Assembly (NCBI GenBank): GCA_948144175.1 | Contig: CANXME010002547.1 | Span: 62,001 to 126,000 of the forward strand | Source of the DNA: Closterium sp. NIES-65 | Taxonomy: Eukaryota > Streptophyta > Zygnematophyceae > Desmidiales > Closteriaceae | Length of the DNA stretch: 64,000 nt | Direction of reading: 5' to 3' | Shown here: positions 29,354 to 64,000 of the stretch, piece by piece | How the letters are laid out: every line of letters begins with the position of its first letter | Position numbering within the stretch: the stretch's first letter is position 1 | The notes under the pieces: generated by a model | The model's database searches: none | What the model saw: only the letters and a program-made list of their open reading frames with translations | Told to the model about the DNA's origin: nothing | Program-made: the position numbers and the translations under genes

Positions 29354-32300
29354 TCATAAATAATCACCTTGCACGATTTCATTTCCCTTCAGCCCAGACA
29401 AGCATCGCCAGACAGCCTTGGAGAGGGAGGCGTCATCAAGGGGTTTGGAGAGGTAGTCATCCATGCCGACGGCAAAGCAGTGCTGGCGCGTGCCGGCAAT
29501 CACATCCGCTGTGAGCGCAATGATGGCCACATGCCCCCCGCCCTGAGCCCTCTCCCTCGCTCGGATCCTCCGGGTCGCCTCCAGCCCATCCATTTCCGGC
29601 ATCTGGGGGGTGTAGAGGAACGAGGGGTGGAAAAGGGGGAGTTCAACGCCAAATGGAGTGGCGGATGCTCCTACTCGCCTCCAGCCCGTCCATACCCGGC
29701 ATCTGCATGGGAAGGTGGGGAAAGGGAGGTTGAGAGATGAAGATGAAGCAATGATGATTGATTTGCTACCCTCCCATACATCTCCCACCCTCTCACACAT
29801 CTCCCACCCTCCCACCATCTGCTACTCTCCCACACATCTCCCACCCTCCCACCATCTGCTACCCTCCCAAACATCTCCCACCCTCCCACCATCTGCTACC
29901 CTCCCACACATCTCCCACCCTCCCACCATCTGCTACCCTCCCACACATCTCCCACCCTCCCACCATCTGCTACCCTCCCACACATCTCCCACCCTCCCAC
30001 CATCTGCTACCCTCCCACACATCTCTCCCTCGCCTCCTAGGCTCACCTGCAGGTCCATGAAGACAAGCTGATAGGGGTGGGGCGGAGCAAGGGCTTGAAG
30101 CGCCTTGGTGCCGCCATCCACGGCAGTGACTCGCGCGCCGTGCCTCTCCAGCAGCTTGCTGGCCACCTTGCGGTTGATGAGGTTGTCATCCACCACCATC
30201 ACCCGCCGACCCACCAGCACGCTCAGCCCCTCCGCCACCGTTGCCGGCTCCCGTGCCGCTGCTGCTGGGGCTGGTGCTTCTGCAGGGGCTGCTGCTGCTG
30301 GCACGGGCATTGCTGCTGTTGCTGCTGCTGCTGGCGCTGCTTCTGGAGCTGCTGCTGGTGTTGGAGGCGGTGGTGGTGCTGCTGCTGCCACAGCCACAGC
30401 AGTAGCACCACCTGCACGAGCAATTTGGGATGCAGAAGCAGCAGAAGAATCTGCAGCAGCAGCAGCAGCAGCAGCAGCTGGGGTAAACTGTGGTGATGCC
30501 GGAGTGATCTCAGTTGCCCTGCGTTTCCTCTTATCTTTCCTCGAATCACCTTCCTTTGAACTGTCTGTAGCAGCGTGACATGAAGACCTGTCAGGCTCGC
30601 ACGCAGCAATGTTTCCACGAAACTTTCGAGGAGACAGCAGCTTCCATAAACCCCTGTCCTTGCCAAACCTCCCACTGCTCCCTCCCTCTTTTCTCTCTCC
30701 CTCCTTTCTCTCATCCTCCCTGCTCCCACACTCATGGCAATCATTTTCAACAGAGTCACAAACTCCACAATCAACCTGCAAGCTACCCAGCTTCCCAGGC
30801 TCACTGGTGTAACCTGAGAGCATTTCAAGACCTCCTCTAGCCTGGTCAGCATCAGAATCACAGCGTCTCACCGGCTCGGTAGTATCTACGTGGCGGCTGC
30901 TCACATGAGGCGAGTGTGACAACGCAGACTTTTGGGATTGCGGTAAGAAGAGGGGCAGCAGGGCAGCGGCAAGCGTGTTCCTCCGAAGCGGCTTCCGAAC
31001 CACAGCATCGAACCCGAGAGAGAGGAGGTACGGCACGGTGGTAACCGGTGAGGCCGACGCTCCTGGAGTGGCAGGTGCACCGAATCTGGACACCACATGC
31101 GCCTCGCTGCTGCTGCTGGCGGTTCGGCTGCAAGCAGGGGTGCTGTGGTTGTGGTTGCTGTTCCTGTTATCGGAACCATTGATATTGGTGTTGTCGGCGG
31201 TGCTTCCAGGGTTGCCTTTTGTACTGGTTTCCGGAGCAACAGACGGTTGAACGAGGTCTGGAGCAAGGGACACCCACCCATGTAGCAGCACCAGTGCCGG
31301 ACGCTCACGATTCCTCCCCTGCCTCTGCCCTGTCTGCTGCTGCTGCTGCTCCTCCTCCTTCTTCTTGGCCTCCTCTTCCTCCTCTTCCTCCTGCACCATC
31401 TGCTGCTGCCGCTGCTGCTGCTCCAGGGGAGAGAGGTGGGGGGACACGAGGGCAAGCAGCTGGTCCACATGCAGGCGGCAGCGATTCATCATCTCCTCCT
31501 CCACCACCACCGCCACCACCCGACTCCTCGGCACCACACGCTGCGGCTGCTGCTCTTGCTGCTCGTGTTTCTGCTGTTGCTGCTGCTGCTCTTCTTGCTG
31601 CTGCTCCTGCTTTTGCTGCTCCGCCTGCATCCCCCGCTGCGGCTCCTCCTCCTCTTCCTCCTCCTCCCCTCTCTGCTGCTGCTGTTGTTGCTTCACCTGA
31701 GCCTCAGCCAAGCACTGCAGCAGCAGCGACGCTTTCGACTCGATCCTCGGCCCTTCCATGCTCACACTCACCACCTTGCCACTCGCGGTGCGCATCAAAC
31801 TCGACCGTGTTGACTGCCTTGACTGCATTGAAAGTATTGACCGCATCGACTGTGTTGACTGAGTTGACTGCCACCCCTCCACCACCACCCCATCCCTTGC
31901 CGCACATCCAAAGTTGCAGGCCCCATGCAGGCTGCATCCCATCCTGCCAGGGACACATTCACCAAGGGGTGAGAGGCGCGGTGGCCCCACCGCGCTAACT
32001 GACGATGCTCTCGCATGCTTCGAAGCCGCTGACCCCGGGCCAGTGGGGCTAGAAATGTGCGGGCTGGAAGCAGGAGTGAGGGAGACAGACGGGGCGTGGG
32101 TCGATGAGAGGGACGGGACCCTAGGAGGGTAGGACGGAAGGGACTGGGTGACCAGAGAAGGTTGTGGAAGTCGATCAAAGGTACAGATCAAAGGGCCAGA
32201 GGGGGGGTCGAGGGACAGTGCCTTTTGAGTCGACTCAAGAGGATCTAGGGAGAGAGAAGGGTTGAAGGGAGGGTCGAGGGAGAGGGTGGGGCTACACGCA

Positions 32301-32612
32301 CCCTCTGCATAGGCCCTCTCTGCTTGCTTCTGAAACGCCTTTCTGAGGCTTGGGAGGTCGTTGTGGGAGAGGGACGGGGTGCGGGACAAGGAGGGGGAAA
32401 AGGAGGTGGATGCGTGTAGACGCTCTTTCTTTGTTGAGAGTGAGGAGGTGCGTGCTAAGGAGGAGGAGGGTGGTAGATGCTTGGAACGGCGCGCGGGGTT
32501 GGAAGAAAGGTCGGGAGAGGAGGATGGCTGGAGAAGGGGGGGTGAGGGGTAGGAGGGGAGTAAAGATGGGTGGGGACAGTGTTGTTGTTGCTGTTGTTGA
32601 TGGTGGTGGGAC

Positions 32613-32644
<32 letters not shown>

Positions 32645-33714
32645 GTCTGCAAAGAATCGGCAGATGGGATTCCGAACAAGGCCAGCAGTAGGAGAGTCTT
32701 CCAAACCAGAGGCCCCTCGGAGCACAGCAGTCAGAGCAGCATCAGCAGCTGGGCCTACATCAGTCGAGGAGCAAGGAGAGGCTGAGAGAGAGCGAGGCAC
32801 GCATGCCTTTTTTGCGGGGGAGGCGCCCAAAGAGCTGCTTCCAGGGGCTGCGATTGATGGGCTCACACAGGCCCCGCTTGCACGCGCAGCAGCACGCAGG
32901 GCTGTGGTGGCAGCGCTGGGCGGTGCAGAGGCGGCAGAAGCAGAGATGGAGTGTGGGAGAGACGCCAGCCTGGGCGGCATGCTGCTGCTGCTGGCTGCAG
33001 TAGGTGAAGGGCCAGCAGCAGAAGGCATTGCAGCAGCAGAAGCAGTAGGGGCAGTAGGGGCAGGAGGGACAGAAGGAGAAGGGGCCAGAGCAGATGTGGC
33101 AGTGGGAGCAGGGGGTAGAGAGGAGGAAGCAGGAGGTTGGGCGGCTAAAAGAGAAGGAATCAGACTGGGAGGGTGAGTGGCTGTGCAGTGGTGAGCAGTT
33201 GGGGGGTCGAGAGCAGCGGTGGAGGAGCGATGGCGCCAGTGGTGCGGTGCAAAGCGGAGGAGAGGCTGACTCCTGGTCTTCTTGGAGTCAGGGAGGAGGG
33301 GGATGAGCGACTGACTCCTGGTCTTCTTTTGAGGCGCCTCAAGAGGCTGGCTCCTGGTCTTAGTGGACGTGGGGAGGAGGGGGATGAGAGAGATGGACAT
33401 AGAGTCTGCTGACGTCTCCGCCCTGGGGAGAGGCGGGACGAGAGAGAAAGATGGTGAGTCTCCCCTTCCTAAAGAAAACGTTTTCTTTCTCTTCGTTGCT
33501 CCTGCTGCTGTTACACTCGCTCCTCCTCCTCCTCCTCCTCCTCCTCCTCCTCCTCCTCCTCCTCCTCCTCCTCCTCCTCCTCCTCCTCCTCCTCCTCCTC
33601 CTCCTCCTCCTCCTCCTCCTCCTCCTCCTCCTCCTCCTCCTCCTCCTCCTCCTCCTCCTCCTCCTCCTCCTCCTCCTCCTCCTCCTCCTCCTCCTCCTCC
33701 TCCTCCTCCTCCTC

Positions 33715-33748
<34 letters not shown>

Positions 33749-36700
33749 GGCTGCTGCTGGTGCTCCTGTTGGTGCTGCAGTCAATGCCACATCAGATTCA
33801 GGTGCAGCTGCAGCAGCTGGTGGGAGGCCGTAGTGGTGTTGGGCGAGGAGGCGGGGGAGGAGGTGGAAGGAGGGGCAGGGGAGGGTGCAGATGCCAAGGC
33901 GGCGCAGCAGAGAGAGAGTGACGGCATGCCGCACCGCCCGGTCGTCCACACTCACCACAAGCACGCCTTCCCATCCCTCTGCTGCCCTCCAACCACCCCC
34001 ACCACTCACCACGCACACGCCCATCTCACTCCCAGCCACTGTTCCACCAGCACCACCAGCAGCAGCAGAGCAAGCAGCAGCAGCTGCACGTGGTGTGAAG
34101 GACGGCCCAGAAGCAGCAGGCGAGATGGTGCGAGGCAGCAGAGGCATAGAGGGCGCGAGAGGAGGAGGAGGAGGAAGAGGAGGGCAGGGCGCTGGGCAGG
34201 AATGGGCGGAGGAAGGAGGGAAAGGAGGAGGGCAGCAGGGCGGAGGGGTGGAGGGAGTGTCGGTAGGAGGGGTGTGGAGCGTGATATCAAAGTAGAATGT
34301 AGTGCCGACGCCTGGCTCGCTGGTGAAGGCGATGCTGCCTCCCATGAGCGACACGAGACGCTGCAGAACAGATGAGGCATGCCACACGGGAAGAGGAAGG
34401 GAAGCCCAGAGACATGAAGCAAGATAGGAGGTGCGAGAGTTGATGTACAAGGGGAAGGTGCTGCTGACGCCTGGCTCGCTGCTGAAGGCAATGCTGCCTC
34501 CCATGAGCAACACGAGACGCTGTAAGGGGGAGGGGAAAGAGGGAAGAACAGGGTCGGACAACACAGAGAGGTGGACATAAGCTCGTTCCTTCAGGGCTAG
34601 CGTAATGGGCGTAGCAGAGGGAGAGGGATGCGTGTTGGCCTGTGCAGGCGTTGCGTGCGGGATGCGATGGGAACAGCAGAGGGATGGCTGCCAGGGAACA
34701 GCAGAGGGATGGCTGCCAGGGAACAGCAGAGGGATGGCTGTCAGGGGATTGGGTAGAAGCGTGGGGGACTAGAGAAGAACATGTGAGTCTCAGGCAAATT
34801 TCAGGGTGCGACAGGCAAAATACAGGGCAACAGGGCAAATCTAGAGTCAAGGCCACCAGAAAATCTAGGAAGCGTGGTGCCACACGCACCTTACAGATGG
34901 AGAGGCCGATGCCCGTCCCCCCATGCAGGCGAGTGGTGCTGGCGTGCGCCTGGGAGTACGGGCGAAACATACGCCTCTGTGCCGCCATGGGGATGCCTTC
35001 TCCTGTACCTCATCCGTACCTCACCCATACCTCACTCGTACCTCACCCATACCTTATCCGTACCTCACCCATACCTCACCCGTACCTCACCCATACACAA
35101 CGGACCTTACAGATGGAGAGGCCGATGCCCGTCCCCCCATGCAGGCGGGTGGTGCTGGCGTGCGCCTGGGAGTACGGGCGAAACATGCCCCTCTGAGCCG
35201 CCATGGGGATGCCCTCTCCTGTATCCTCCACCGCCACCAGCAGCCGCACCGCCTGCCCTCCGCACGCTGGGTGCGCCTGAGAACTCTCTGCAACACCCTG
35301 CACCGCCTGCCCTGCACACGCTGGGTGTGTTTGAGCGTTGCTGGAGCAGGTGTGATTCGCCATGCCATGCTGCTGACAGCTGTGATTGGCCGTGCCGGTG
35401 CCGGTGCCGGTCCAGGTGCCAATGCTGGTGCTGATCGTGCCGGTGCCAACGGTGCTGAGGTCTACAGTGCCGCCCATAGCCTCCCATGAGCACCACGTTT
35501 GCACTGCCGGCCGCCCGCTCAGCGTCAGTGCTGCTGCTGCTGCTGCTGCTGGTGGTACTGCTTCTTCGGGTGCTCTTGGTGCTGCCTTTCCGCTTCTGCC
35601 TTCCTCTCTTGAAGCGTGCCGGCGATGGTGATGGGAGTGGTGGTGGTGGGAGTGGTGATGGAAGGACACAGACAGCTCTTCGAGCATGCTCCTCCAGTGG
35701 CGGTCGGGATCGCTGTTGCGGCGGCGATGGTAACCATGGTGCGAATGCGAGTGGTGGTGGTGCTGCTGGTGGTGCGAGTGGTGTTGGTGGTGGTGCTGCG
35801 AGTGGTGCTGGTGCTGGCGGTGATGGAGGGAGGAAGAGGCAGAGGAGGCGAGGGAGTGGACGGTATCGTCGGGCAGAGCGAGGCGGATGACGAGGAAGAT
35901 GTGCCCCGTGCTCGTGAACTTGAACGCGTTGCTGATGAGGTTCATGAGGATCTGTGGCCGGTGGGGAGGGTGGGAAGGGAGGGGACAGGTGAGGGGTATA
36001 GCCTCAACGCATTCATGAGGACTCATTAGGCTTTGTCGGGCAGAGCGAGGCGGAAGACGAGGAAGATGTGCCCCGTGCTCGTGAACTTGAGCGCGTTGCC
36101 TATCAGGTTCATCAGGATCTGTGGTCGATTAAAAGGGCCGAGGGGTCGTAGGGAGAAAAGAGGGAGATTGTTTGCTAATTTTTCGCTCACAAAAAATGGG
36201 TGGTGGGGAGCGCGGTGGGGCACGAGGGTCAATGGAAGAGGGGGGCGCCGGTGGGCAGTGTGGGCGGGGTACAGGGGCACTGGCGATATTTTTAGTTGAA
36301 CTTCAGGTTTTAAAGGTAGCAATGTTCTAATGGGTCTAGTGTAAAAGTGGGATGCATGGAAACAACGTGAGTTTAACGGCAATAAAGAAAATCTCCACCG
36401 GAAAAAAAACTAAAACAAATAAACAAACAATTGCTGAGTTTTATTTACTCACCTGCCGTATGCGCAGCGGATCCCCGACGAGAGTCTCCGGCACATCATC
36501 AGCCACGAAGGCTGCCAGCTCCACCGATCGCTTCTCCTCCGCGCTCTCCACAAACAGTGCAAGCACGTCGTCGAGCTCGGCTCTCAGATTCAAGGGGATG
36601 CGCTCGAGGCGGAGCTTCTCGGCCTCGATCTTGGAGAGGTCGAGAATGTCGTTGATCAGCGCACACAGCGCCCGCCCGCTGCTGCACGCCGTCTCCGCGT

Positions 36701-39700
36701 AGTCCTGCTGCGTGCCGTCCAGAGGGGTCTCCATCAGCAGGTTCAGCATGCCTGGTGGGGGGGATTGACAAAGGGGAGGGAGGGTTGGAAGGAGGAGTGT
36801 GTCCGACTCAAGAGGAGCAGGTGTGCCGCGACCAGAAGTGGAGCAGGTGGGCTGAAGGGGAGGGGAAGGTTGAGGTAGGGTGAAGGCGGCCGTGATGTGA
36901 GATGAAGGGCGCAAGCAGATTCAGCATGGCAAGGTTAACGTGTGCCGGCCGGGTGGGTGGTGGTGATGTGCAGTGCAGGCAGGAATGCAGGGTCCAAGCA
37001 AGCATGGTGGGGGCTGCTAGTATATGGTAACTGAAAGCGTACCTATCACGCCATTCATGGGAGTACGAATCTCATGGCTCATGGTGGTGAGGAAGTCGCT
37101 CTTAGCTCGACTCGCCGCCTCTGCCGCCACCTTGGCCGTCGCGAGCTGCGCTTGTGCTGATTCCACTCGCAGCGTGTCGGTTTCAAGCTTGGCCATGAGG
37201 TGCACGGACATCCAGAGCACGAGCACTGAGATCGCCAGGATGATGAATGAAACTACCATCCACACGAACGGCGGGCTCGGCTTCGCGTTGGCTTCCGGCC
37301 TGCGAGGGGGAAGGAAGGGGGTTTGTTGATATAAAGAGTCACTTACGATGCACTCAGGAGGCAAATTCGAGGCTATGAAGAGGTAGAATGAGAAGCACGC
37401 AAGGGGCGCTTCACGAGCACTTGAGAGACAGATTCTTAGGATTTCTAATAGCTGGACAACCAACCTGCAGACAGAACGAAACAAAAAAGACGGGCTCGAC
37501 AGAGCGAGACGGAGCGGATCAGACAAAGGCAAACAGACAGAAAGAAGCAACGCTGAGCCCCAGGCAGCCCACTCACTCGCAAACAAGCACAAAGTTCCGT
37601 GACGGGTCGCCGAACCACATGGGGTACTGAACGCGCCCTTGGTACTGCACCACTCGTCTCTTATGCGCCACCGCCGCCCACACTCCTGCCTGCTTCCCCG
37701 TCATCCCCTCCGTCCCTTCCGGCCCAAACAGCACAGCTGGGCTGCTCTCATTGGTCACGTCTATGAGGTATGTGCGAAGAGGGAGGGCTTTAAGCTGGTC
37801 GAAGTTGGGGGCGAGGCGGAGTGTGTGGAAGGAGTAAGCTGCGATGAAAAAGCCGTGCGGTTTGGTGAGTGCGTCGAGCGAGTCGGGCTCAAAGCTCTGC
37901 GGTGCAGATGGGTCGATTCCGGTGTGGGGGTGAGGGGGGGATCCAGTGGGTGCATGTGCGTCTGGGGAGTTGGTTGGGATGGAACCGCTGCTGCCATTGC
38001 TGGTGCTACCACTACCCTCCGTGCCACTGCCGCTGCTGCCATTGTTGCCGCTCCTGCCACCGCTCCTGCTGCTACCAGTGCTATTAGCATTGGTGGAGGC
38101 AGCACCAGGCACGTGAACGAACACGTGGCCGTGGTCATGAGTGTCGTACACGGGGAAGGCCTGCGCCACCATGTGGAAGGGCGATGCTGGGGATGCCATG
38201 GGGGCGGACATGGCGCCGCTGCGCCCCGTGTCTGCCGCCCGGATCATGGCTGCTAGCGTGGGGTCTGATGGAAGGGAAGGGTGGAATGGGGGAGGGGTGG
38301 GAAGTGAGTAGGAGTCATGGGATTGGGGAAGTGAGTAGGAGTCAGCGCCGCAAGCTAGGGCTCACCGGAGAGCAGGTCAGCGCCGGCAGCAGTGCGGTGT
38401 GGGGGGAGGTGGTTTTGAGAAGAGATCTTTTGAGTCGAATCGCAAGCTCAGGCTCACCGGAGAGCAGGTCAGCGCCGGCAGCAGTGCGGTTGCGGGGAAG
38501 GCGGCGCATGCTGCTCCCCTCGTTGCTGCTGGTGCCCAGCAGCAGCGGCACGTACAGCGGCAGGCCAGGCGGGCGGCAGGAGAACTCCGCGCTCACTGCG
38601 ATGAGGCAGCCCTGCAGTCGCTGCTCCACGTGGCTGCGCAGGGCTGAGCTGTTGACTCGGAGAGCATAACCCACAACTGGAGAGGGGGGGAAGGGGTGGG
38701 TGCGATGGGTGCGATGAGTGCAATGAGGCAGCCCTGCAGTTGCCGCTCCACGTGGCTGCGCAGGGCCGTGCTGTTCACTCGAAAGGACAGGGAGGGGGAG
38801 GGATGGGTGCAGTGAATGTGATGAGGCAGGCCGGGCGGGCGGCAGGAGAACTCCGCGTTCACTGCGATGAGGCAGCCCTGCAGGCGCTGCTCTTTGCTAC
38901 GTGATGGCGGAGAGCCGTGCTGTTGTGTTGACTCGAGGAGCATAGCCCACAACTGCAGGGGGGGTTGGGGAAGTTTGAAGGACAGGGGTTGACGGGGTAG
39001 GGAGGGGATGGAGAGGAAAGCGGAAGGAAGCAGAATGGGGAAGGAAGGGCAGGAGAGGAAATGAGGGAAGGCACGAGGCAGCAGTAGAAAGAGCGAGTGG
39101 TGGGAGGATGGGTGGTTGGGGTGGTTGGGGTGGGCGGATGAGCGGATGGGTGGATGAGTGAATGGGGGGACGAGGGAGGCAACTCACATGCTGCCACGGG
39201 GCGGGCGTGCAGTGCGGAGGAGCTGAACTTGAGGAACTTGGACGGGCGGAAGAAGCTCTCGCGCCTGATGGGGGGAAGGTGAGTGGGGGAGAGTGGGGGG
39301 GTGGATGCGGGGGGGGGGGGGGATATTGGGGGAGAGGGGGGGACAAGGGAGTGACAGGGAGATTGTGGGCGTATCTTCTGACATGGTAAACGTGCGACAC
39401 CTTATGACGTAGAGGGCATACCCACCCACTCGTATGGTAAACGTACCCGTCGATGTAGTAGGCGTGGACGAACTCGGCGAGCGCGCGCGTGTTGGCCTGC
39501 GTGGAGTTGAAGTGCGACTCGATGAACGCTGCCCACTCGCCGCACTGCCCCTCGCGCTCCGCCTGCTGCTCGCTCGACGCTTGCGTCCACACGATCGTGA
39601 AGATCATCGCCAGCAAGCCCACGCTCATCACCGCCCAGATCCAACACACGCGCTGGGATGGCGGCGGGGAGGGAGCGGGAACAGGGGGAGGGGGAAGAGG

Positions 39701-41167
39701 GACACTGAGTGTTTCTCTGCCACTGCGCGCGCCCGCACGCGCGCGAAGACGACTGCTAGCCCGTCGAGACTGATCACTGCCCAGATTCAACACATGCGCT
39801 GGGGGATGGGGAAGTGGAAGTGGCGGGGATGGGGTGGTAAGGGGGAAGAGAAGCGATGCGCGCATCAGCAAAAGTCGCCAGCAGCGGACCCGCGCTAGTC
39901 AGCGGCGAAATTCGACAGAAGCAAGGAGAGACGGAGGAGAGGAGATGAGACGCCGTGAAACACGCAGCACTCGTACCACAAAGATCATTCGTCGCGCGCG
40001 CGCATTCGTTGAATGCGTGCAATCGTCGCATGCGTGCATTCGTCGCATGCGTGCATTCGTTGCATGCGTGCATTCGTCGCATGCGTGCATTCGTCGCATG
40101 CGTGCATCCGTCGCATGCGTGCATTCGTCGCATGCGTGCATTCGTCGCATGCGTGCATCCGTCGCATGCGTGCATCCGTCGCATGCGTGCATCCGTCCCA
40201 TGCGTGCATTCGTCGCATGCGTGCATCCGTCGCATGCGTGCATTCGTCGAACGCGCGCGTCCGGCGCCCTGACGGCCAAGACCCAGCACACGCGGCGCTG
40301 TGAGACAGGAACAGCACCCAGTGCATGCGTGGTTAACGCCGCTGGCGCGACCAGGCGGAAAATAGTAATGAAAAGGCAAACAACAAACAAAACACACGCA
40401 TTTGAACGTACCAGACGCCATGCGTGCGTAAGAGCGCGCAGCGGCCAGGAGAGAAACGACTCGACGGCAGACACCCAGGACTCTCTCGTGCTCCCACTTA
40501 ACTCCTCCGCCCCCCCCTTGTCGTCCTCCTCTTCATCCTCCCATTCCTCGTCTCCTTCCCAGTGTCCATCACATTTCCGTAGCGCCGTTCTCTCGGTGTT
40601 CCTCATCCCCTGGTCGCCTTTGCGACAACTTAGTCCACCGATTTCCCATCCATCGTCGCTAGAGCTGGACCCATCGCTACTATCGCCATCACCTTCGTCG
40701 TAAGCATGCGACTCCTTCCCGCCGCGTCGCCTTGCCGTTTTCCGCCATAAACGCGAAATGCCTACCCAGCTTTTCTTCCTCTTACGACCAACTCCGTCAG
40801 AACCCACTAAATTGTCCACTTCGGAATCATCCCGGTCGTTTCTCTCTAAAAGCTTCCTGTCCAGCCACGAACTGGGAGGTTCATGGTTACTCTCGCCACC
40901 ATCTCGCCGCGCGGGGTCAGCAGCAGCGAAATCGTAACCGTCAGAAGCTCCCAGGCTTGCGACAGCCGCACAACTGCTGCTGCCCTCGCTGCTGCCGGCG
41001 AAACCCTTCCGGTCGTCAACATTACCGGCGGCAGCCGCAGCTTGCCTTCGCGTCATGTATTCCTGGGGACGCGTGGAGCGAACGGAGTTGCTTGCGCTGA
41101 GATGCTCGGACACGTCGGGCGAAGATTCCGCGGAAGGTGATGCGAACACACTCATTTCCGCCATCAT
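29354..41167 (-). CDS. AHK: CHASE-domain hybrid histidine kinase (cytokinin-receptor type)
   Basis: Membrane sensor kinase of the plant AHK/CRE1 family, predicted to bind cytokinin outside and start a His-Asp phosphorelay. Exons by eye: 40412-41167, 39447-39652, 39188-39264, 38458-38676, 37577-38264, 37043-37299, 36453-36751, 35106-35951, 30047-34360, 29354-29602; all introns GT-AG, total 7911 bp, 2636 residues. Residues 1-252 form a charged extension; TM1 is about 255-276, CHASE about 290-640, TM2 about 660-682. The H-box [10 protein letters not shown] has phospho-His at about 724. The N-box [10 protein letters not shown] is at about 838, DTGEGIP at about 1077 and GGTGIGLS at about 1106. A receiver-like domain begins [10 protein letters not shown] and ends [13 protein letters not shown]. 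The true receiver has VVDDN (2507-2508), acceptor Asp 2552 (FMDLQMPEMDG) and Lys 2607. The usual family length is 1000-1200; the excess lies in His-rich and low-complexity insertions. The start could also be Met2 or Met5. An unseen intron within the long exon 9 cannot be excluded. Confidence 0.88.
29662..29702 (-). repeat. Echo of kinase exon 10 start
   Basis: Copy of the acceptor and first about 40 bp of exon 10 (ATGCCGG.ATGGA.GGGCTGGAGG), lying about 100 bp upstream in the same intron. The frame carries on through the intron into exon 10, so use of this acceptor cannot be excluded, but the added peptide has no family counterpart. Confidence 0.75.
29764..30024. repeat. 37-bp minisatellite, kinase intron 9
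   Basis: About seven copies of a pyrimidine-rich unit (CTCCCACACATCTCCCACCC followed by TCCCACCATCTGCTACC) just downstream of exon 9. Near-identical copies suggest recent expansion. Confidence 0.85.
32222..32241. repeat. Short palindrome within kinase exon 9
   Basis: CTTTTGAGTCGACTCAAGAG. It lies in coding sequence and reads in frame as Leu-Glu-Ser-Thr-Gln-Lys. Confidence 0.75.
33326..33345. repeat. Short palindrome within kinase exon 9
   Basis: CTTTTGAGGCGCCTCAAGAG. It is in frame as Leu-Glu-Ala-Pro-Gln-Lys and lies between local repeats coding Lys-Thr-Arg-Ser-Gln. Confidence 0.75.
33519..33719 (-). repeat. GGA trinucleotide tract coding polyglycine in kinase exon 9
   Basis: About 67 uninterrupted CTC units on the plus strand. 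On the minus strand, in the kinase frame, they read as glycine, preceded by an alanine run from a CTG tract (33719-33748). It sits inside the receiver-like domain. Confidence 0.9.
34453..34519 (-). repeat. Echo of kinase exon 9 start
   Basis: Copy of the acceptor and first about 65 bp ([17 protein letters not shown]). The frame stays open into the real exon, 159 bp downstream, so this acceptor would add 53 residues and duplicate the start of the exon. This is a possible alternative isoform. Confidence 0.8.
34888..35006 (-). repeat. Echo of kinase exon 8 end
   Basis: A 119-bp near copy of 35104-35222 including [11 protein letters not shown] and the donor. No acceptor of its own is obvious, so it probably stays intronic. 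Confidence 0.8.
36029..36124 (-). repeat. Echo of kinase exon 8 start
   Basis: Copy of the acceptor and first about 90 bp of exon 8 ([19 protein letters not shown]), 170 bp upstream. It runs into a stop soon after the copied part and has no donor, so it looks non-functional. Confidence 0.8.
38352..38400 (-). repeat. Echo of kinase exon 4 end
   Basis: Repeats the last about 35 bp of exon 4 with its donor (GCCGGCGCTGACCTGCTCTC). A worn palindrome CTTTTGAGTCGAATCG (38427-38442) lies between parent and copy. Confidence 0.7.
38712..38952 (-). repeat. Two echoes of kinase exon 4 start
   Basis: 38827-38952 copies the acceptor and over 100 bp of exon 4 but does not stay open in the exon phase. 38712-38790 is a shorter copy. 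Only the third, proximal version (38458-38676) is open and fits both neighbouring exon phases. Confidence 0.8.
39768..39800 (-). repeat. Echo of kinase exon 2 start
   Basis: Acceptor plus about 30 bp matching the TM1-coding start of exon 2. A second echo lies at 40255-40300, beyond the intron minisatellite. Confidence 0.7.
40009..40255. repeat. 17-bp minisatellite, kinase intron 1
   Basis: About 14 copies of CATTCGTCGCATGCGTG with TTC/TCC variants. The 17-bp unit read in three frames makes an apparent 17-residue protein repeat, which is an artefact. Confidence 0.9.
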
Positions 41168-48900: not shown

Positions 48901-51061
48901 ATTTTCATATAACACGTCTGGACACAAGCAGGTCCAGATGGTCTTGAAGAACTTTTGAAGCGCCTCAAACTCCGCCCATACCATGCGCCCTTCACTCCCA
49001 TCACATCACACTGCACCCGCACGCATCCGAAAGCGTACCCCCTGCACTCACATCCCATCCCACACCCCCTGCACTCACATCCCATCCCACACCCCCTGCA
49101 CTCACATCGTGTGTCCCAGATGCGCACGGACTTGTCTTGAGGCGCGGACGCAAGGAGGTCCGTCCGGGTGGGTGGGGGAGGAGACTCTGAGGCGCCTCAA
49201 CATGCGTCCCATACCATGCACCCTGCACGCTTATCCCATCCCACACCCCCTGCACTCACATCGTGTGTCCCAGATGCGCACGGACTTGTCTTGAGGCGCG
49301 GACGCAAGGAGGTCCGTCCGGGTGGGTGGGGGAGGAGACTCTGAGGCGCCTCAACATGCGTCCCATACCATGCACCCTGCACGCTTATCCCATCCCACAC
49401 CCCCTGCACTCACATCGTGTGTCCCAGATGCGCACGGACTTGTCTTGAGAAGCAGACGCAAGGAGGTCAGGGTGGAGGGGGTCCCAGCACAGGTTGTCCA
49501 CACTCTCGCTGTGGCCCCTCAACTCCACCTCCCGATGCTTGCTCTGCACCATGGCACATAGTATGACATGACATTCCATGACATGTCATCACATGAATGA
49601 CATGACATGATATGTCAGAGTGGTGAAAGGGGCCTCTTTCCCAGCACAAGTTGTCACCACTCTCGCTGTGACCCCTCAACTCCACCTCCCGCTGCTTGCT
49701 CTGCAGCACCACGGGCAGCACGTGAACGGCATGACACGACAACGATGGGAGGAATGAGGCGGATGGAGGCTCAGAGTCGGTCGGATCGGAAACGTTACAC
49801 TGGGATGGGGTGCTGGACTGGGATGGGGTGTTGGACTGACTGGAATGAAACTTAACAAATGGAATGGGGCGTTGCCAGGCTGACTCACGGAGTTTGATTG
49901 GCCGCTCGGATCCACTTGCCACACGCGAATGGTTTGGTCCACCGAACCTGACCCGAGCTTCTCGCCGAGGCAGTTCCACACCACCGAATGCACCTGGGTC
50001 AGAGAAAGAGAAAAACGTCATAATGAAACACAGAAAATGATGCATTCAACGTTCTTTGGAACGGAATCCGTGTTACCTTGACCTAGCATCCTTTCCCTTC
50101 CCCTACCTTCAGTTCTGTATGACCTCATTCTGTATGACCTCATTCTGTATGACCTCATTCTGTATGACCTCATTCTGTATGACCTCATTCTGTATGACCT
50201 CATTCTGTATGACCTCATTCTGTATGACCTCATTCTGCATGACCTCATTCTGTATGACCTCATTCTGTATGACCTCATTCTGTATGACCTCATTCTGTAT
50301 GACCTCATTCTGTATGACCTCATTCTGTATGACCTCATTCTGTATGACCTCATTCTGTATGACCTCATTCTGTATGACCTCATTCTGTATGACCTCATTC
50401 TGTATGACCTCATTCTGTATGACCTCATTCTGTATGACCTCATTCTGTATGACCTCATTCTGTATGACCTCATTCTGTATGACCTCATTCTGTATGACCT
50501 CATTCTGTATGACCTCATTCTGTATGACCTCATTCTGTCTGTCAACTCCATACCTCCACAAGACCTCATGCCCCCAACACACTCCTACTCCCCCCCTCTC
50601 CCCCGTGCCTCCCACGCGCCTCCAACGCTCCCGCATGCCTCCCACCTGCTTTCTACTCCCTCATTGGTCCACGTGTCTCGTACCTTCTTCTTGTGCCCAA
50701 CAAACTCTCGGCTGTACAGGTTCCTAAAAGGGTCCTTTCCCGCTCTTAGTTGCGACGGCAGCGGCGCGGGTGCCGGCGGCTGCTGTGACTGCCCTTGCGC
50801 CTGGCCCTGCCCCTGCGCCTGTCCTTGCGACTGCTGTTGCTGCAGCTGCTGCTGTTGCTGTAGTTGCGCTTGCGCCTGCTGCTGTTGCGCCTGCTGCTGC
50901 GGGTGCGGAAGCGGAGGCTGCGCGGGGGGTCCGCCGGGGTATTGCGCGAATCCGGTTGCGCCGGGGTGCGGCGGAGTGGGGTAGCGGTGGGGGATGTGGC
51001 CGTGTGTGAAGGGTGAGGGGTGGTGCTGCTGGTAGTGCATCGGCCCTCCCATTCCGTACAT
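42903..51061 (-). CDS. THO3: THO complex subunit 3 (THO3/TEX1), WD40 protein
   Basis: WD40 subunit of the THO/TREX complex, which couples transcription to mRNA export in the nucleus. Exons by eye: 50684-51061, 49889-49993, 49414-49543, 48493-48584, 47462-47530, 47151-47208, 46782-46881, 46134-46220, 45124-45202, 44020-44149, 42903-42937; total 1263 bp, 420 residues. After a Gln/Pro-rich region (to about residue 105) come family signatures in order: SREFVGHKKK, SVDQTIRVW, LRGHSESVDNLCWDP, SASQDKSVRIWDTR, KGENINVTYKPDGTHIAVGN, FAAGSADALVSLWD, RTVSFSHDGRYLASASEDLF, VEWNPKHLLLAYASDDDGK and a C-terminal RVFGF. The last exon is 35 bp and was recognised by phase and the family's RVFG-like end. Family length is 315-350; the excess is the N-terminus. 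Five introns are packed with minisatellites or exon echoes. Confidence 0.9.
43412..43705. repeat. 19-bp minisatellite derived from THO3 exon 10
   Basis: About 15 copies of GTCAGAGGCATACGCCATA in intron 10. The unit is the exon-10 sequence for Tyr-Ala-Ser-Asp. The array is flanked by longer exon-10 echoes (43412-43440, 43705-43760, 43872-43945), so it probably grew from an echo. Confidence 0.85.
43802..43820. repeat. Palindrome, THO3 intron 10
   Basis: CTTTTGAGTCGACTCAAAG, first of two copies 25 bp apart just past the exon-10 echo. Confidence 0.8.
43827..43843. repeat. Palindrome, THO3 intron 10
   Basis: CTTTTGAGTCGACTCAA; shares the preceding GGTGA with its neighbour, so the pair may be a local duplication. 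Confidence 0.8.
43872..43945 (-). repeat. Echo of THO3 exon 10 end
   Basis: Repeats TGGAACCCCAAGCACCTGCT through the GATGGCAAGCACTCATCCCC donor region of exon 10. Confidence 0.8.
44428..44983. repeat. 16-bp minisatellite, THO3 intron 9
   Basis: About 35 copies of TGCACGGTGTGTTCTA. CACGG and CATGG variants occur in blocks rather than mixed, which indicates segmental expansion within the array. Confidence 0.92.
45447..45465. repeat. Palindrome, THO3 intron 8
   Basis: CTTTTGAGTCGACTCAAAG. A weaker relative, TTTTTGAGACGCCTTAAAAA, lies at 45401-45420. Confidence 0.75.
45741..46133 (-). repeat. 98-bp tandem echoes of THO3 exon 8 end with donor
   Basis: Downstream of the real donor at 46133, the last about 50 bp of exon 8 plus the donor and about 45 bp of intron recur with a 98-bp period. 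Donor copies fall at 46035, 45937 and 45839, with a diverged copy at 45741. Three of the four copies keep GTGAGT. Confidence 0.88.
46325..46360 (-). repeat. Echo of THO3 exon 8 start
   Basis: Acceptor-like CTTGCAG followed by GTACTTTGCAGCAGGCAGTG, 140 bp upstream of the real exon 8. Confidence 0.75.
46993..47014. repeat. Perfect 22-bp palindrome, THO3 intron 6
   Basis: Both arms read AGTTTTGAGGC outward from the centre. It is the most complete copy of the dispersed palindrome. Confidence 0.9.
47632..48179. repeat. 34-bp minisatellite, THO3 intron 4
   Basis: About 16 nearly identical copies of a unit starting GAAACGAAGTAGGTGAGGTG. Only one or two single-base variants were seen. Confidence 0.93.
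48343..48490. repeat. 21-bp minisatellite next to THO3 exon 4
   Basis: About six copies of CACGTTACAGTACAGCACTTT ending at the exon-4 donor. Confidence 0.85.
49185..49201. repeat. Palindrome between exon-3 echoes
   Basis: CTCTGAGGCGCCTCAAC; its sister in the other 154-bp unit lies at 49339-49355. Confidence 0.75.
49339..49355. repeat. Palindrome between exon-3 echoes
   Basis: Second copy within the tandem unit, same sequence as at 49185. Confidence 0.75.
49635..49706 (-). repeat. Echo of THO3 exon 3 start
   Basis: Acceptor plus about 60 bp (SKQREVELRGHSES), 160 bp upstream of the real exon 3; it diverges before the WD motif. Confidence 0.8.
50113..50537. repeat. 15-bp minisatellite, THO3 intron 1
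   Basis: About 28 copies of TCTGTATGACCTCAT, almost invariant. It stays open in several frames because 15 is a multiple of three; this is not a protein. Confidence 0.93.
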
Positions 51062-51527: not shown

Positions 51528-59953
<8,426 letters not shown>

Positions 59954-61136
59954 GGCTCCCGGGACTGCGATGTGTCTGTGTAACAGCCGAGTCTTTTGCG
60001 TTACAGTCTGCTAGCAATGCGTGGAAAGTTCGAAGGCCACGAGTTGACAATTGAGGGGAATTAAGACGATGCAGGCCAAGACGATGCTCGCCAAGGCTAT
60101 TTCGTGTCTCTGCCAGAGTCAGAGACCAGGACAGGGCAGCAAGAGCAACCCTTGGGAGTATCGACTCTTGAGATGATCAAACTTCGCTGAGTATCAATGG
60201 CAATGGGTCAATGGGGTCCAAGAGAACCGTCCCTAGTAGAGCGCTAGCTGGAAGTTCTCAAGGGCTTGCTCCCCCTATCTTGTCTTCCCTTGAGCTTGTC
60301 AGACGAGGTTTCAAGAAGACCTTGATCCGTTTCAAGCAGCTCGGGTATTCTTCTCCCAGAGAATAGAAAAATAGACTACATAATTTGAACATGGAGTACT
60401 TCAACGATTGGACAAATAAGCATTCAGGGATGCCCTTTGATTGGACAGTCGGGCTACTGGGCTGTGCTGCTTCGTTTTGCAAGATTCTTGGGGCTGACAC
60501 CGAGAATCAAGGCACACGTCCGCCACGGGTCCAGCAACATCGGAAAATCAACGCCACGTCATGCCAGAAGAAGCATCTCCGATTTCCTTCCTACCTACCA
60601 TCATGCATTTCCTCCTCCCTTCCCTGCTTGCCTGTGCTGGTTTGGTTCACCATCCCTGACTGAGGGCGTATCCCCGGGTGGTGGCAGGGCCACTGTAGAT
60701 GGCAGAGTTGGTGGCATGCGGGAAAACCGCATGCCACCAACATTTTTACCGAGGCGCGCGCGACTCGTATTTGGTGGCATTGAAGTGACATTTTTGGGGC
60801 ATTGCCCAATCACGCACCTGTATTCGCGCGCCAAATTTCCTGACACCAACCTGGCGTTTTATGTGTTCGTGGCAGGCTGCCATCTACAGTGGCCCTGCCA
60901 CCACCCAGGGATACGCCCTGAATCACACAACACTCACCGAACACATCATTCAGAAGATCTCACATCAGTTTCTGTTGTTCGAGTCAAATGTAGTCAGGCC
61001 AAGTCAGCCGCTGATCCCCAGAAATTGTTAAGAGTCCTCCGCTACCACCAATTCTTCCTAAATCTGCAGTCGCGTTTTTGTTTTAGCTCGCCAAGCGTCG
61101 TCAAATCATTCGCTTTCTCGTGAAGCCTGACTGAGC
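59954..61136. promoter_or_regulatory. Shared upstream region of PTA and ACK
   Basis: 1183 bp between two divergent start codons, so it must contain both promoters. No TATA box or other site could be assigned. It contains the foldback repeat at 60663-60919. Confidence 0.6.
60663..60919. repeat. 257-bp foldback (MITE-like) element
   Basis: Terminal inverted repeats of about 43 bp (60663-60705 and 60877-60919) begin AGGGCGTATCC and end GTAGATGGCAG, with one mismatch noticed. Inside the left end is a second hairpin (60707-60721 with 60727-60741, arms GTTGGTGGCATGCGG). No ORF and no clear target duplication were found. The family is unassigned. Confidence 0.85.
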
Positions 61137-64000
61137 ATGGCGAAGTCGAAGACGATCCTTGTGCTGAACGCAGGGAGCTCGTCTCTCAAGTATGTCTCCT
61201 GCCTTGGTCTAACATGCGTCCTGATCCCTGGAACCAAGCGCCGTTCGGGAAAATCCGTTTTCCCGCATTGCGATGATTGCTGGTGTATTATTCACCCTTT
61301 TCTTTGAGAGAGCATTGCAGCTGGTATGCACCTTCACGTTTGGTTTAAGACTTTTTAGCGGAAACGATTTTCTTCGTCCCTCCATCTGCGCATGACTGAA
61401 GGTACGCGCTGTACGAATTCGCGGATGCGCTGAAGGCGAAGCTGGCGGTGTCGGGTCTGGTGGAGCAGATCGGCACTCCCAAGGGCGTCATCACGCACAA
61501 GGCCCTCGCCACCAACCAGACCGTCCATGAGGTCAGCCGCCGTCACCTTCATCGCTTTCATTGCGAATTCGGGACCACCCTCAATCAAATCAAACCGCTC
61601 TGCCTCCCCTCTGCACTCTTCAACCACCTTCTTTCTCTTCAGCCACCTTTCTCGTTTATTCACTCATTCAGCTCACTCCGATAAAGTGCATCTCTGTGTT
61701 TGTTTACCGGCTCTGTGTTCTAACCTTTAACCATAAATACTCACTGTAACTCTCAATGCCTCACTGTAACCCTTCCTGTGTGACGTGCTTCAGAAAGCGG
61801 TGTTCAGCGACCACAAGGAGGCCATGTCGCACGCGCTGAAGCTGATGGGGATCAGCAAGGGCAGCAGCGCCGTGACGGCAGTGGGGCACAGAGCGGTGCA
61901 CGGCGGTGAGGAGATCAACAAGTCGTGCATCATCACGGAGCACGTGAAGGACGTGCTCAAGAAGTTCACGCCGCTCGCCCCTTTGCACAACCCTCCCAAC
62001 CTCCAGGTACGGCCTTGAACCGCACTACACCGCACAGACCCGCACAGAACTGAACCGAACCCTCAGAACCTCGTGCTAATGTGCTGGAATGGACATAGCG
62101 ATTGTGAAGTGCATGCAAGAATCAAATCACACACAGCCATGACCAGATATGATCAGTTGTGAAGGACAGGCAAAACACACTCAGACTCCTAGTCTCGCAA
62201 GCCACCCCAGCCCTTGCAAGCACACATACCCACAATGCAGGCACACACAACACATCCTATAGGACTGCGGGTTGGTCCTGGCGTGACCATGTCTCGCCCC
62301 CCAAGGTTCCGTTTCTGCCTTCTTAAATCCTTGACCACCATACAGGGCATGGCGTGAGCGCAGGATGACTGGATGGCTGGATGGCTGGATTTCTGGCTTC
62401 CCATGCTCTATCCCCACCTCCTCCTGAACGCTTACTCCGCTTATGAGATTGATGGAGCTGCTGCATTGTTCGCATTCTACCTGCTTCATTGTTGGGTCCA
62501 ACCACCATGCTCTGTACCTACTTAACCTGCCTGCAAATCTACCATCTCATCGCTCTTCCCCCCATTCCCCTTCCTATGTCATCTCCCCACCCCACTCCTC
62601 CCTCTTCCCCCGCGCTGGCATGGGCAGGGCATGGCGGTGGCGCAGGAGCTGCTGGACTGCCCGCATGTGGTCCCCACCCCACATTCCCCCCGACCTCATC
62701 TTACCACCCACCCCCTCCTCCTCTCTCCCTGACTGGCATCCCAAGGGCATGGCGGTGGCGCAGGAGCTGCTGGACTGTCCGCAGGTGGCCCCCGCCCCAC
62801 ACCCAACCCACCCCCTCTCCCTCTGACTGCCATGGGCAGGGCATGGCGGTGGCGCAGGAGCTGCTGGACTGTCCGCAGGTGGCGGTGTTTGACACGGCGT
62901 TCCACAGCACCATCCCGCCGCACGCCTACACGTACGCCCTGCCCTACCGCCTCTACAAGGAGCTGGGCGTGCGGCGCTACGGTTTTCATGGCACCAGCTA
63001 CATGTACCTGCTCAGGGAGACGGCGAGGCAGCTGGGGAAGAAGGAGAGCGAGATGAACATGATCACGCTGCACCTGGGCGCCGGTGCAAGTATGGCGTGC
63101 ATCAAGGAGGTGAGTGGGACAGCAGTGCTGGAAATGATGGGTTCAGTGTGCGACTGGCCTTTGGGTCAACTCTAACGAAGGAAAGAGAGGTGAACACGAT
63201 CACGCTTGGGAGTCGGTGCCAGCATGGAGAGCGAGTCCCATGCATGCATCAAAGATGCGTTCCTGCATGTTTTAAGTCCACTCTGAAGTTATCTCGAAGG
63301 AGAGCGAGATGAACACTATCACGCTGCACCAGGGGGTGGATGCCAGCATGGCGTGCATCAAAGAGGTGACTGGGTCAACAGAATCAATGGACTATGGTTT
63401 CTTCTGTGTGGCTTGGTTCGTTCCGTTCTTTGTTCTGTTCTTGTTCACCCCTTCTGGAATGAACCTCTTCTTAACCACTGTTATTTCTCCCTGGGTGATT
63501 GCAGGGCAAGTGCATCGACACAACCATGGGAGTAACCCCCCTGGAAGGCCTCGTGATGGCCACTCGGTGCGGTGACATCGACCCAGCCATCCCCAAGATC
63601 CTCTCAGACCTCCAAGGCCTCTCCCCTGCTCAAATCGACTCTCTCCTCAACAAGGAGTCCGGCCTGGTGGGCATCTGTGGAGACAAGGACATGAAAGCAG
63701 TCGTAGACCGCACCGAGGTTGCTGAAGCTGCATGCATACCTGCAGGGGATGACCTGGAAGGGGGCGGCCGGCACCGGCTTGCTCTGGAGGTGTTTGTTCA
63801 TCGCGTGAGGAAGTATCTGGGAGCGTATTTGGTCCAGCTGGGAGGGAAGGTGGACGCTATTGTGTTCAGTGCAGGGATTGGGGAGAGATCGGCGCCAGTG
63901 CGGGCGCGGGTGTGTGCGGGATTGGAGGCGTTTGGGATTGAGGTGGATAAGGCGCGGAATGAGGAGGGGAACAAGGGAGCACGAGAGATTTCTGTGGCAG
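61137..64000 (+). CDS. ACK: Acetate kinase, 3' end beyond window
   Basis: Transfers phosphate between acetyl phosphate and ADP, giving acetate and ATP. Exons by eye: 61137-61189, 61402-61531, 61794-62006, 62840-63109, 63505-64000 (open); 387 codons seen of an expected about 400-420. Motifs in order: [114 protein letters not shown] stop (TGA) sits just upstream of the ATG in frame, fixing the start. No presequence is visible, unlike PTA, so the kinase looks cytosolic unless targeted otherwise (inference). The partner gene PTA lies head to head upstream. Confidence 0.93.
62627..62800 (+). repeat. Two echoes of ACK exon 4 start
   Basis: 62627-62672 and 62746-62795 repeat an AG acceptor followed by GGCATGGCGGTGGCGCAGGA and about 30 bp more, ahead of the real exon at 62840. 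They diverge from the exon after GTCCGCAGGTGGC. Confidence 0.88.
63178..63375 (+). repeat. Two echoes of ACK exon 4 end
   Basis: 63296-63370 closely copies the last 60 bp of exon 4 (ATCACGCTGCACC..GGCGTGCATCAA) with its GTGA donor. 63178-63250 is a more worn copy. Both lie in intron 4. Confidence 0.85.

Follow-up and report, generated by a model that had tools for sequence, protein, structure and literature searches.

Partial copies of exon borders recur in the introns of Closterium genes at a preferred step of about 150 bp

In nine genes of Closterium NIES-65, we observe partial copies of exons, here called echoes, in the adjoining introns at 74 of 165 internal exon edges. They had been noticed in four neighboring genes of one 64,000-nucleotide stretch of DNA, hereafter the window; the observation is confirmed and extends beyond the window. 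We read the echoes as the outcome of recurrent tandem duplication of approximately nucleosome length within genes, possibly through out-of-register exchange between diverged homologues, and give this reading a probability of roughly 0.4. The duplication itself is well supported, and the route is one that we infer.

Gene models and echo inventory

The window comes from a pond-dwelling algal relative of land plants and contributes four of the nine genes counted; the other five are chaperonins elsewhere in the genome. Exon models are in-frame for all four window genes, and each modeled exon was compared with all introns of the gene to which it belongs. Pfam confirmation covers three of the four (THO3, PTA, and ACK). 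The window genes are the following.

29343..41167, minus strand: presumed hybrid histidine kinase gene (HK; family name assigned from motifs), 10 coding exons, internal junctions GT/AG, seven echoed edges
42906..51061, minus strand: THO complex subunit 3 gene (THO3), 10 modeled exons plus a short last exon, 42906-42938
51528..59953, minus strand: phosphate acetyltransferase gene (PTA), 15 exons, Pfam PTA_PTB 1.7e-115
61137..64000, plus strand: acetate kinase gene (ACK), exons 1-5, cut by the window edge, Pfam Acetate_kinase 1.2e-124

THO3 is recognized by Pfam Beta-prop_THOC3 (3.6e-114) and by a structure match to THO3 in PDB 7znk, while PTA matches Closterium NIES-65/NIES-54 proteins at 98-99%, covering 76-81% of the query. 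By match to protein P0003, the last coding exon of THO3 seems to lie at 42906-42938; the end of exon 10 is therefore also counted as internal, which gives a base of 73 window edges where 2(n-1) gives 72. The chaperonin models are protein-guided because a basic gene finder calls too many echoes as exons: L029 alone was built on an annotated NIES-65 protein, and for L032-L035 the proteins were assembled from gene-finder exons, with echo-like exons left out. The nine-gene counts leave out loci L030, L031, L036, and L037. Low-complexity self-pairs, self-pairs with over half of their length in short tandem arrays, a spurious 9-bp exon of L033, and, for the intron-pair count, pairs with offsets of <60 or >450 bp were removed before counting.

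Echoes are seen at 25 edges in the window, belonging to 18 of its 40 modeled exons, and every exon copy named in the original prediction is present: kinase exons 2, 4, 8 (both ends), 9, and 10; THO3 exons 3 (both ends), 8 (both ends), and 10; PTA exons 3, 4, 5, 6, 9, 11, 12, 13, and 15; and ACK exon 4 (both ends).

29662..29705, minus strand: HK exon 10 start echo, 84% to 29562-29605
34441..34522, minus strand: HK exon 9 start echo, 85% to 34282-34363
34884..35007, minus strand: HK exon 8 end echo, 118 exon and 6 intron nt, 95.2% to 35100-35223
36035..36127, minus strand: HK exon 8 start echo, 92.5% to 35868-35960
38349..38412, minus strand: HK exon 4 end echo, 89% over 64 bp, offset 92 (coordinates hand-derived)
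38711..38964, minus strand: HK exon 4 start, two echoes, 87% and 81%
39729..39850, minus strand: HK exon 2 start echo, 70% to 39583-39699
43386..43933, minus strand: THO3 exon 10, three echoes, 91% (43846-43933), others 79-85% to the exon
43426-43708: 19-bp minisatellite between the older THO3 exon 10 echoes
45704..46133, minus strand: THO3 exon 8 end echo array, 98-bp units
46325..46388, minus strand: THO3 exon 8 start echo, 83%
49053..49413, minus strand: THO3 exon 3 end echoes, 154-bp array units, 98% matches, 91% to the exon end
49623..49703 (ends approximate), minus strand: THO3 exon 3 start echo
51769..51860, minus strand: PTA exon 15 start echo, 87%
52532..52617, minus strand: PTA exon 13 start echo, 88%
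52697..52900 (ends approximate), minus strand: PTA exon 12 end, two echoes, 71-72%
53237..53313, minus strand: PTA exon 12 start echo, 82%
53597..53684, minus strand: PTA exon 11 end echo, 93%
54041..54109, minus strand: PTA exon 11 start echo, 86%
54730..54980, minus strand: PTA exon 9 end, two echoes, 132-bp units, 81-86%
56657..56740, minus strand: PTA exon 6 start echo, 82%
56906..57002, minus strand: PTA exon 5 interior piece in the downstream intron, 82% to 57313-57409; the window's exception to the edge rule
57649..57904, minus strand: PTA exon 5 start, two echoes, 85% and 90%
58286..58468, minus strand: PTA exon 4 start, two echoes, 85% and 82%
58618..58725, minus strand: PTA exon 3 end echoes, 57-bp units
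62585..62789, plus strand: ACK exon 4 start, two echoes, 75-83%
63177..63381, plus strand: ACK exon 4 end, two echoes, 75% and 85%; the twin copy differs here

Over the nine genes, 133 exon-to-intron matches lie on the same strand and 2 on the opposite strand. Start copies were expected upstream and end copies downstream of the parent, and this is what we find, with 63 of 63 in the intron immediately upstream and 53 of 53 in the one immediately downstream; the remaining matches (4 whole-exon, 13 interior) are likewise all in adjacent introns. A cDNA or retro origin was rejected, as no match was found in any non-adjacent intron of the nine genes. Echoes are thus adjacent, similarly oriented, and kept in order, as in tandem duplication. 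Single copies occur at 45 of the 74 echoed edges, two copies at 22, and more at 7. Divergence, about 70 to 100% identity overall, was said to rise with distance from the parent. Within multi-copy edges this holds, the nearer copy being the more similar one in 41 comparisons and the less similar one in 15, whereas no such trend is seen across edges (rho -0.08, p 0.38).

Restriction to exon edges and the 150-bp step

At 49 of the 74 echoed edges the nearest echo lies 120-180 bp away, against 9.5 under random placement and a maximum of 21 in 2,000 placements; the median nearest offset is 148.5 bp. Remainders of these offsets on division by 3 (28, 24, and 22) display no frame preference. This preference for a step of about 150 bp was not among the original observations.

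Of exon bases <60 bp from an edge, 44-50% are echoed, while none of the 6,137 bases at least 200 bp from an edge is, many of the latter belonging to HK exon 9, a low-complexity exon in which the search was filtered. HK exon 9 also contains a short internal repeat.

The tandem duplication bridging exon borders that was originally proposed thus stands as regards copies that are local, on the same strand, and on the right side. In its plainest form, duplication would occur in situ anywhere in genes, and the faster decay of introns would leave only exon parts visible, a matter of pure ascertainment; we consider this possible, if doubtful. It accounts for arrays with complete intron units (THO3 exons 3 and 8, PTA exon 9, and CCT5 exon 8), and for diverged homology between the intron flanks of echo and parent, which are related (z>3) in 57 of 115 echoes against 24 of 345 controls, arrays included (start echoes, 27/62 versus 16/186; end echoes, 30/53 versus 8/159). 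Judged from these flanks, about half of the echoes can be plain in-situ duplications. However, with simulated intron decay at 1.54, 2.5, and 3.5 times the exon rate, uniform duplication predicts 167, 144, and 95 intron-only pairs per 103 edge pairs, figures inflated by the use of present intron lengths, and we observe 13, itself an upper count given that the two from THO3 represent intron portions next to the exon 3 echoes. The predicted enrichment at exon borders against intron DNA is thereby borne out. Plain duplication also falls short as a full account in that young matches stop just inside the intron: in 10 of 10 non-abutting pairs of at least 92% identity (92-98%), the match ends 3-10 nt into the intron, although these pairs include the far copy of the two-copy CCT5 array and were picked by whole-match identity, which disfavors pairs extending into diverged intron. 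One young pair, PTA exon 11, displays more intron likeness beyond a small insertion (by eye; z 4.5).

Divergence between echoes and their parents

The second feature that plain duplication does not cover is an excess of differences at third codon positions. We observe a mismatch ratio of position 3 to positions 1-2 of 6.7 at 95-99.99% identity and 2.3 below 80%, based on 119 of the 133 matches, with identical array units excluded (113 in identity classes, 6 without mismatch). The ratios in young pairs, 6.7 and 4.2, exceed those expected of one neutral plus one coding lineage and look as if exon and echo derived from diverged homologues. Base composition alone was rejected as the cause, since position 3 stays 2.0-fold (non-CpG G/C), 2.8-fold (CpG), and 5.6-fold (A/T) higher within context classes, the A/T value being inflated by the classing of sites by exon base. 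Mismatch at positions 1 and 2 agrees at CpG (0.138/0.141) and G/C sites (0.059/0.066) and less so at A/T sites (0.067/0.042). The 2.0-fold excess at non-CpG G/C sites fits in-situ duplication, as a neutral echo and a coding parent suffice there and no homologue is required.

Decay after formation looks neutral, because gaps in echoes are mostly non-triplet (22, against 4 triplet). Stop codons number 5, against 26.8 under a uniform model, a shortfall that constraint on the echo would also explain.

Proposed mechanism

Under the reading that we prefer, short tandem duplications recur inside genes, each copying one nucleosome length of DNA (about 150 bp) across an exon border, and echoes are what remains visible of them. 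The original splice junction would stay functional, and the additional copy would be spliced out and decay in the intron. We infer that each unit joins halves contributed by diverged homologues of the gene, either alleles or hybrid-derived copies, with a shift in register of about one nucleosome. The introns of the two homologues would no longer align, leaving only the exon part and splice consensus recognizable; intron-only units would be invisible and exon-only units eliminated by selection. It is the unit length that suggests the link to nucleosomes. That echoes form a fossil record of diverged-homologue exchange in one-nucleosome steps, their synonymous differences preserving the sequence of the lost partner, is a tentative and rather unlikely idea.

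Hybrid ancestry and recombination between origins are described for the Closterium complex in the available account (PMC10407611). Among the best candidates of a genome-wide search with PTA exon 5, only PTA loci and a 73% paralogue appear; the exon's own echoes are 84-91% identical, and the other genomic copies are at 99-100% or 73%. As no copy of this exon other than its echoes has an intermediate identity, any diverged partner has to belong to the past or to another strain. The twin copies C2249/C315 differ by 0.27%, with 47 of 86 differences within two echo-bearing patches and up to 26 differences in 500 bp, compared with a largest value of 9 among 300 random sets. The THO3 exon 8 end array has three units fewer in C315, and for echoes outside arrays, the compared locus copies show neither gains nor losses. 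Use of different donors at PTA exon 11 in the window and its twin was considered and discarded, the two having merely a single-base difference.

Repair of staggered breaks, function, and assembly

An improbable alternative is repair of staggered breaks, in which fill-in of a 40-120-nt overhang at both sides and joining through filler leave a copy-filler-copy structure. Young pairs do resemble X-spacer-X with a non-homologous spacer, and a separate class of noncoding pairs has this form, with a palindromic insert (center, N4) in 15 of 38 pairs against 0.4 expected. An origin by palindrome insertion was retained for these noncoding pairs and rejected for exon-edge echoes, which have a palindrome in just 3 of 56 spacers (0.9 expected); moreover, five start-copy spacers resemble working pyrimidine tracts, not random filler, and both the anchoring of the break at splice sites and the synonymous-site bias would be left unexplained. 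Some palindrome-bearing noncoding pairs share one palindrome, and most intron-only pairs other than the two in THO3 carry a palindrome.

Selection for function, as alternative or decoy splice sites or as regulated unproductive exons, seems highly unlikely to have shaped the echoes. Junction splice sites that are retained match real ones in strength (median, 5.67 versus 5.60 for acceptors keeping AG and 6.65 versus 6.67 for donors keeping GT), each start echo inspected is preceded by its own pyrimidine tract, and the coding-like divergence with few stops would also fit. Yet AG is kept in 50 of 63 start echoes and GT in 42 of 53 end echoes, hence lost in 13 and 11, a retention that we estimate to be about that of neutral decay, and the frame-breaking gaps and the offsets without frame preference likewise speak against function. 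Inner echo ends score as donors in 3% (control, 10%) and as acceptors in 15% (control, 15%), and only 4 of 133 matches span a whole exon, so that cassette exons were rejected and translation of an echo as a cassette is precluded. In NIES-65, the annotated CCT5 protein has a clean 536 aa, free of echoes; P0080, P0081, and P0165, long versions of CCT5 from other strains, were tried as echo carriers, and their extra length is unrelated. That echoes could feed alternative splicing, as suggested from the sequence, is unproven.

Collapsed or chimeric haplotypes are scarcely credible as the source, for although the genome contains near-identical and error-rich copies of the window locus, the same echoes are shared with the twin contig C315 (31.9-64 kb compared) and with C2372 (56-64 kb compared), divergence is graded, the NIES-65 assembly is described as long-read (PMC10407611), and P0006, a protein annotated in a different strain, contains an in-frame echo.

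Spread and significance

That the habit reaches past the window, as predicted, is seen in the five modeled chaperonin genes and in L030, L031, and L036, which are duplicate-rich (no gene models). We count 151 pairs in the 59.5 kb of eight chaperonin loci, while 12 of 13 arbitrary 5-10-kb segments hold 0-2 pairs and the thirteenth, with 18, looks genic; echoes are thus shown to be strongly concentrated in genes.

If general, introns in a sister group of land plants would grow by accreting nucleosome-sized copies of exon borders. Echoes would be a built-in source of cryptic splice sites, and they mislead gene prediction, as in the PTA paralogues P0008 of NIES-65 and P0006 of strain Naga37s-1, two annotated Closterium proteins that contain echoes in-frame. 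They also offer many natural duplications of readable age and geometry for studying how the size and partner of unequal exchange are determined; given the 150-bp step and the synonymous-site signature, existing strains and crosses would suffice to test this. Were homologue exchange true, echoes would serve to date and trace past hybridizations in individual genes, and the spacing of nucleosomes would dictate the register in which unequal exchange occurs.

Comparison with known systems

Tandem exon duplication, including mutually exclusive exons, involves whole exons with two splice sites; it likewise places extra exon sequence in a neighboring intron, whereas echoes are partial and have one splice site. 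Minisatellites consist of at least three near-identical head-to-tail units, unlike the single-copy majority of echoed edges. For Okazaki fragments, a nucleosome-sized unit is expected. Okazaki-flap errors, or the small tandem duplications at breaks described for Pol alpha-primase (PMC8355091), could supply the duplication step; we would expect such copies, unlike echoes, to be identical at birth and free of exon-edge bias.

Introners, as outlined in PMC9860276, are alike in changing intron content genome-wide, but echoes have no shared dispersed sequence (nine genes; PTA exon 5 genome-wide, best candidates). Intron gain in Daphnia, where DNA is inserted at a staggered double-strand break and direct repeats flank the insert (PMC3443670), shares the copy-spacer-copy form with our palindrome class; unlike echoes, it has neither splice-site anchoring nor a fixed step of about 150 bp. 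Also related is intron gain by tandem genomic duplication, where, according to the same summary (PMC3443670), duplication of an AGGT-bearing exon segment creates a new intron; both are local duplications that contain exon and are hidden by splicing. Echoes do not abut the opposite exon as such gain entails, since most sit at a distance of about 150 bp and are followed by further intron sequence; in Closterium the intron pre-existed, and the echo brings its own acceptor with a pyrimidine tract, or its own donor.

Exon-edge echoes in the window and in nine genes

In a self-comparison of 29-64 kb, nearly every longer direct repeat other than minisatellites contains an exon edge. The original prediction had listed 18 exons with echoes, that is, partial copies that lie in the neighbouring intron and span one splice junction; all 18 were recovered, with 25 edges in the window. 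This right half holds four spliced genes, whose exons were modelled one at a time, with intact frames and GT/AG at the junctions. Pfam confirms THO complex subunit 3 (THO3), phosphate acetyltransferase (PTA) and acetate kinase (ACK), and the fourth, named from motifs, is presumably a hybrid histidine kinase (HK). PTA matches its three nearest Closterium proteins at 90-99%, and the public NIES-65 gene model P0003 joins it to the adjacent THO3, probably an annotation error. The left half contains open frames that we take to be nested copia-type retrotransposons, and base composition of the window is GC-rich and swings widely.

The genome searched is 874 Mb long and split into 2,400 contigs; the window corresponds to C2249:62001-126000. 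Via the chaperonin family, five further genes were added and modelled with a spliced aligner:

Elsewhere in the genome: CCT5, CCT2, HSP60, CCT1 and CCT7 (the last four subunit names as assigned by us)

The nine-gene sample amounts to 64,078 bp and 91 modelled exons; at 2(n-1) internal edges per gene this gives 164, or 165 once the end of THO3 exon 10 is included, beyond which a further exon was located but left out of the model. Exon-to-intron matches number 133 on the same strand and 2 on the opposite strand. As had been predicted, start-type matches lie in the intron directly upstream (63/63) and end-type matches in that directly downstream (53/53); the remaining same-strand matches are whole-exon (4) or interior (13), and none of the 133 falls in a non-adjacent intron. 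At least one echo occurs at 74 edges, in 53 of the 91 exons, with one copy at 45 edges, two at 22 and more at 7.

Enrichment at exon borders

The predicted enrichment at exon borders holds in the nine genes: self-pairs at offsets of 60-450 bp comprise 103 exon-edge, 25 echo-echo, 13 intron-only and 1 exon-exon pairs. Echoes cover 44% of exon bases at 0-29 bp from the edge, 50% at 30-59, 41% at 60-89, 27% at 90-119 and 14% at 120-199, and none of 6,137 at 200 bp or more, a bin to which low-complexity HK exon 9 contributes much. We simulated duplications of the observed sizes, placed uniformly, with introns decaying faster than the exon pair (500 placements each). Intron decay of 1.54, 2.5 or 3.5 times gave 167, 144 or 95 expected intron-only pairs per 103 edge pairs, an overestimate because present-day intron lengths were used. 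Among 13 arbitrary genome segments, 12 (five of them wholly satellite) contain 0-2 such pairs, and the thirteenth, gene-like in look and presumably RCC1-like, contains 18. Each of eight chaperonin loci holds between 9 and 31 pairs, for a total of 151 in 59.5 kb.

A step of about 150 bp

The offset from parent exon to nearest echo has a median of 148.5 bp (interquartile range, 130.5-169.75) and lies within 120-180 bp at 49 of 74 edges (start, 30/41; end, 19/33). Random placement in the same introns puts 9.5 edges there on average, with a maximum of 21 in 2,000 trials. Successive echoes of one edge, leaving out the 11-copy CCT5 array, are spaced at a median of 137.5 bp, 16 of 36 within 120-180 bp. 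Offsets show no frame preference. The nucleosome core measures about 147 bp, a match that is at most suggestive.

Splice sites and flanks

Ten non-abutting pairs at least 92% alike, including the more distant unit of a two-copy CCT5 array, match over 24-159 nt of exon but only 3-10 nt of intron, as far as the splice consensus reaches, under a choice by whole-match identity that disfavours pairs running into diverged intron. One of them, at PTA exon 11, shows by eye further intron likeness beyond a small insertion. AG is kept in 50 of 63 start echoes (median score, 5.67 versus 5.60 for real acceptors) and GT in 42 of 53 end echoes (6.65 versus 6.67 for real donors); all five start echoes inspected are preceded by their own pyrimidine tract, and inner echo ends, within exon sequence, are not splice sites. 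In a comparison of intron flanks between echo and parent over all echoes, arrays included, relatedness is detectable for 27/62 start and 30/53 end echoes (controls, 16/186 and 8/159). Thus some units appear to be full tandem duplications, and in others no remnant of a common intron half is visible.

Divergence between echo and exon

Across 133 echoes, mismatches at codon positions 1, 2 and 3 number 208, 169 and 574; synonymous changes number 466 versus 173 in uniform simulation, and stop codons 5 versus 26.8. The ratio of position-3 to position-1/2 mismatches is 6.7, 4.2, 3.6, 2.6 and 2.3 in the identity classes 95-99.99, 90-95, 85-90, 80-85 and under 80%, where a neutral echo beside a coding parent should give about 2 at most. 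Echo-echo pairs are likewise biased (98, 88 and 257, a count inflated by one array). Alignment gaps are non-triplet in 22 cases and triplet in 4. The simplest joint reading, though not the only one, is that an echo decays freely once formed, yet differed at synonymous sites from the present exon already at formation, so that exon and echo would descend from different, functional gene copies.

By base context, the third-position excess is 2.0-fold at non-CpG G/C, 2.8-fold at CpG and 5.6-fold at A/T, the last inflated because sites were classed on the exon base. The non-CpG G/C value is what a neutral echo and coding parent would give, and context removes part of the excess. For about half of the echo set, plain duplication in situ is a possible explanation.

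Other copies of the locus

Other contigs give direct hints that such gene copies exist. At this locus, twin contig C315 is 0.27% different. Of 86 differences, 47 fall in two patches, which coincide with echoes:

46,123-46,602: 17 differences, echoes of THO3 exon 8
62,666-63,499: 30 differences, echoes of ACK exon 4

The densest 500 bp holds 26 differences, against at most 9 among 300 random sets. Two third codon positions of ACK exon 4 are changed in the twin, and at each the base is the one found in the twin's farther echo. Window and twin differ in size by at least 8 bp at exon echoes only in array length (three 98-bp units fewer in the twin, THO3 exon 8); the minisatellite beside THO3 exon 10 shows one-unit changes. 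C2372, a third copy rich in indels, shares the echoes of the window at 56-64 kb. PTA exon 5, the sole exon searched against the genome, had no diverged partner among the best candidates, which were copies at 99-100% and 73% plus its own echoes. One study of this species complex reports extensive variation in copy number, hybrid strains, and recombination that joins sequences of differing origins (PMC10407611).

The twin also has a 2,852-bp insertion at window 42385, which the window copy lacks. A 67-copy trinucleotide run coding polyglycine inside HK exon 9 (33520-33719) is 84 bp longer in the twin.

Palindromes and arrays

Near-perfect palindromes of 14-46 bp (up to one mismatch) share the core TTGAG-NNNN-CTCAA, most often in the form TTTTGAG-NNNN-CTCAAAA, and outside it carry matching arms that vary:

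Window 43805, 45450, 46997, 52490, 53988, 57019, 57062 and others: palindromes
L032 2252, L034 2859 and L033 2295 (chaperonin loci): palindromes

Exact cores number 10 in the gene-bearing 34.7 kb of the window (two in HK exon 9), and none in its copia half or the 13 arbitrary segments. In 15 of 38 noncoding duplications the two direct repeats, 30-108 bp long, flank such a palindrome, in some cases one that several share; the palindromes resemble insertions accompanied by long duplications of the flanks. The PTA-ACK intergenic region holds a MITE-like 49-bp inverted repeat, 94% identical (60657-60705 and 60877-60925, 220 bp apart).

Upstream of CCT5 exon 8, 11 extra copies of its start in units of about 124 bp (L029, about 5110-6540) are an echo become satellite, and a 19-bp minisatellite at window 43386-43744 seems to have arisen from a THO3 exon 10 echo.

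Proposed origin and comparison with known processes

We tentatively propose, at a probability of about 0.4, duplication with a nucleosome step, most likely by exchange between diverged homologues. Tandem duplication would recur in steps close to nucleosome length, probably through out-of-register exchange between diverged homologues, and splicing and coding selection would then filter the products. The proposal accounts for direction, locality, edge restriction, short intron match and intact splice sites, as well as the synonymous bias of young echoes and their later neutral decay; it names no responsible enzyme or event.

Among the papers listed in our literature search, with most subscription journals outside it, none was seen to describe comparable copies of exon edges. 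Two known processes come near. Tandem-duplication intron gain, as presented in PMC3443670, has a defining feature that the Closterium echoes lack, and break-repair duplication leaves their edge restriction unexplained. As mutation, the echoes stand out as unusual in density, step and edge restriction.
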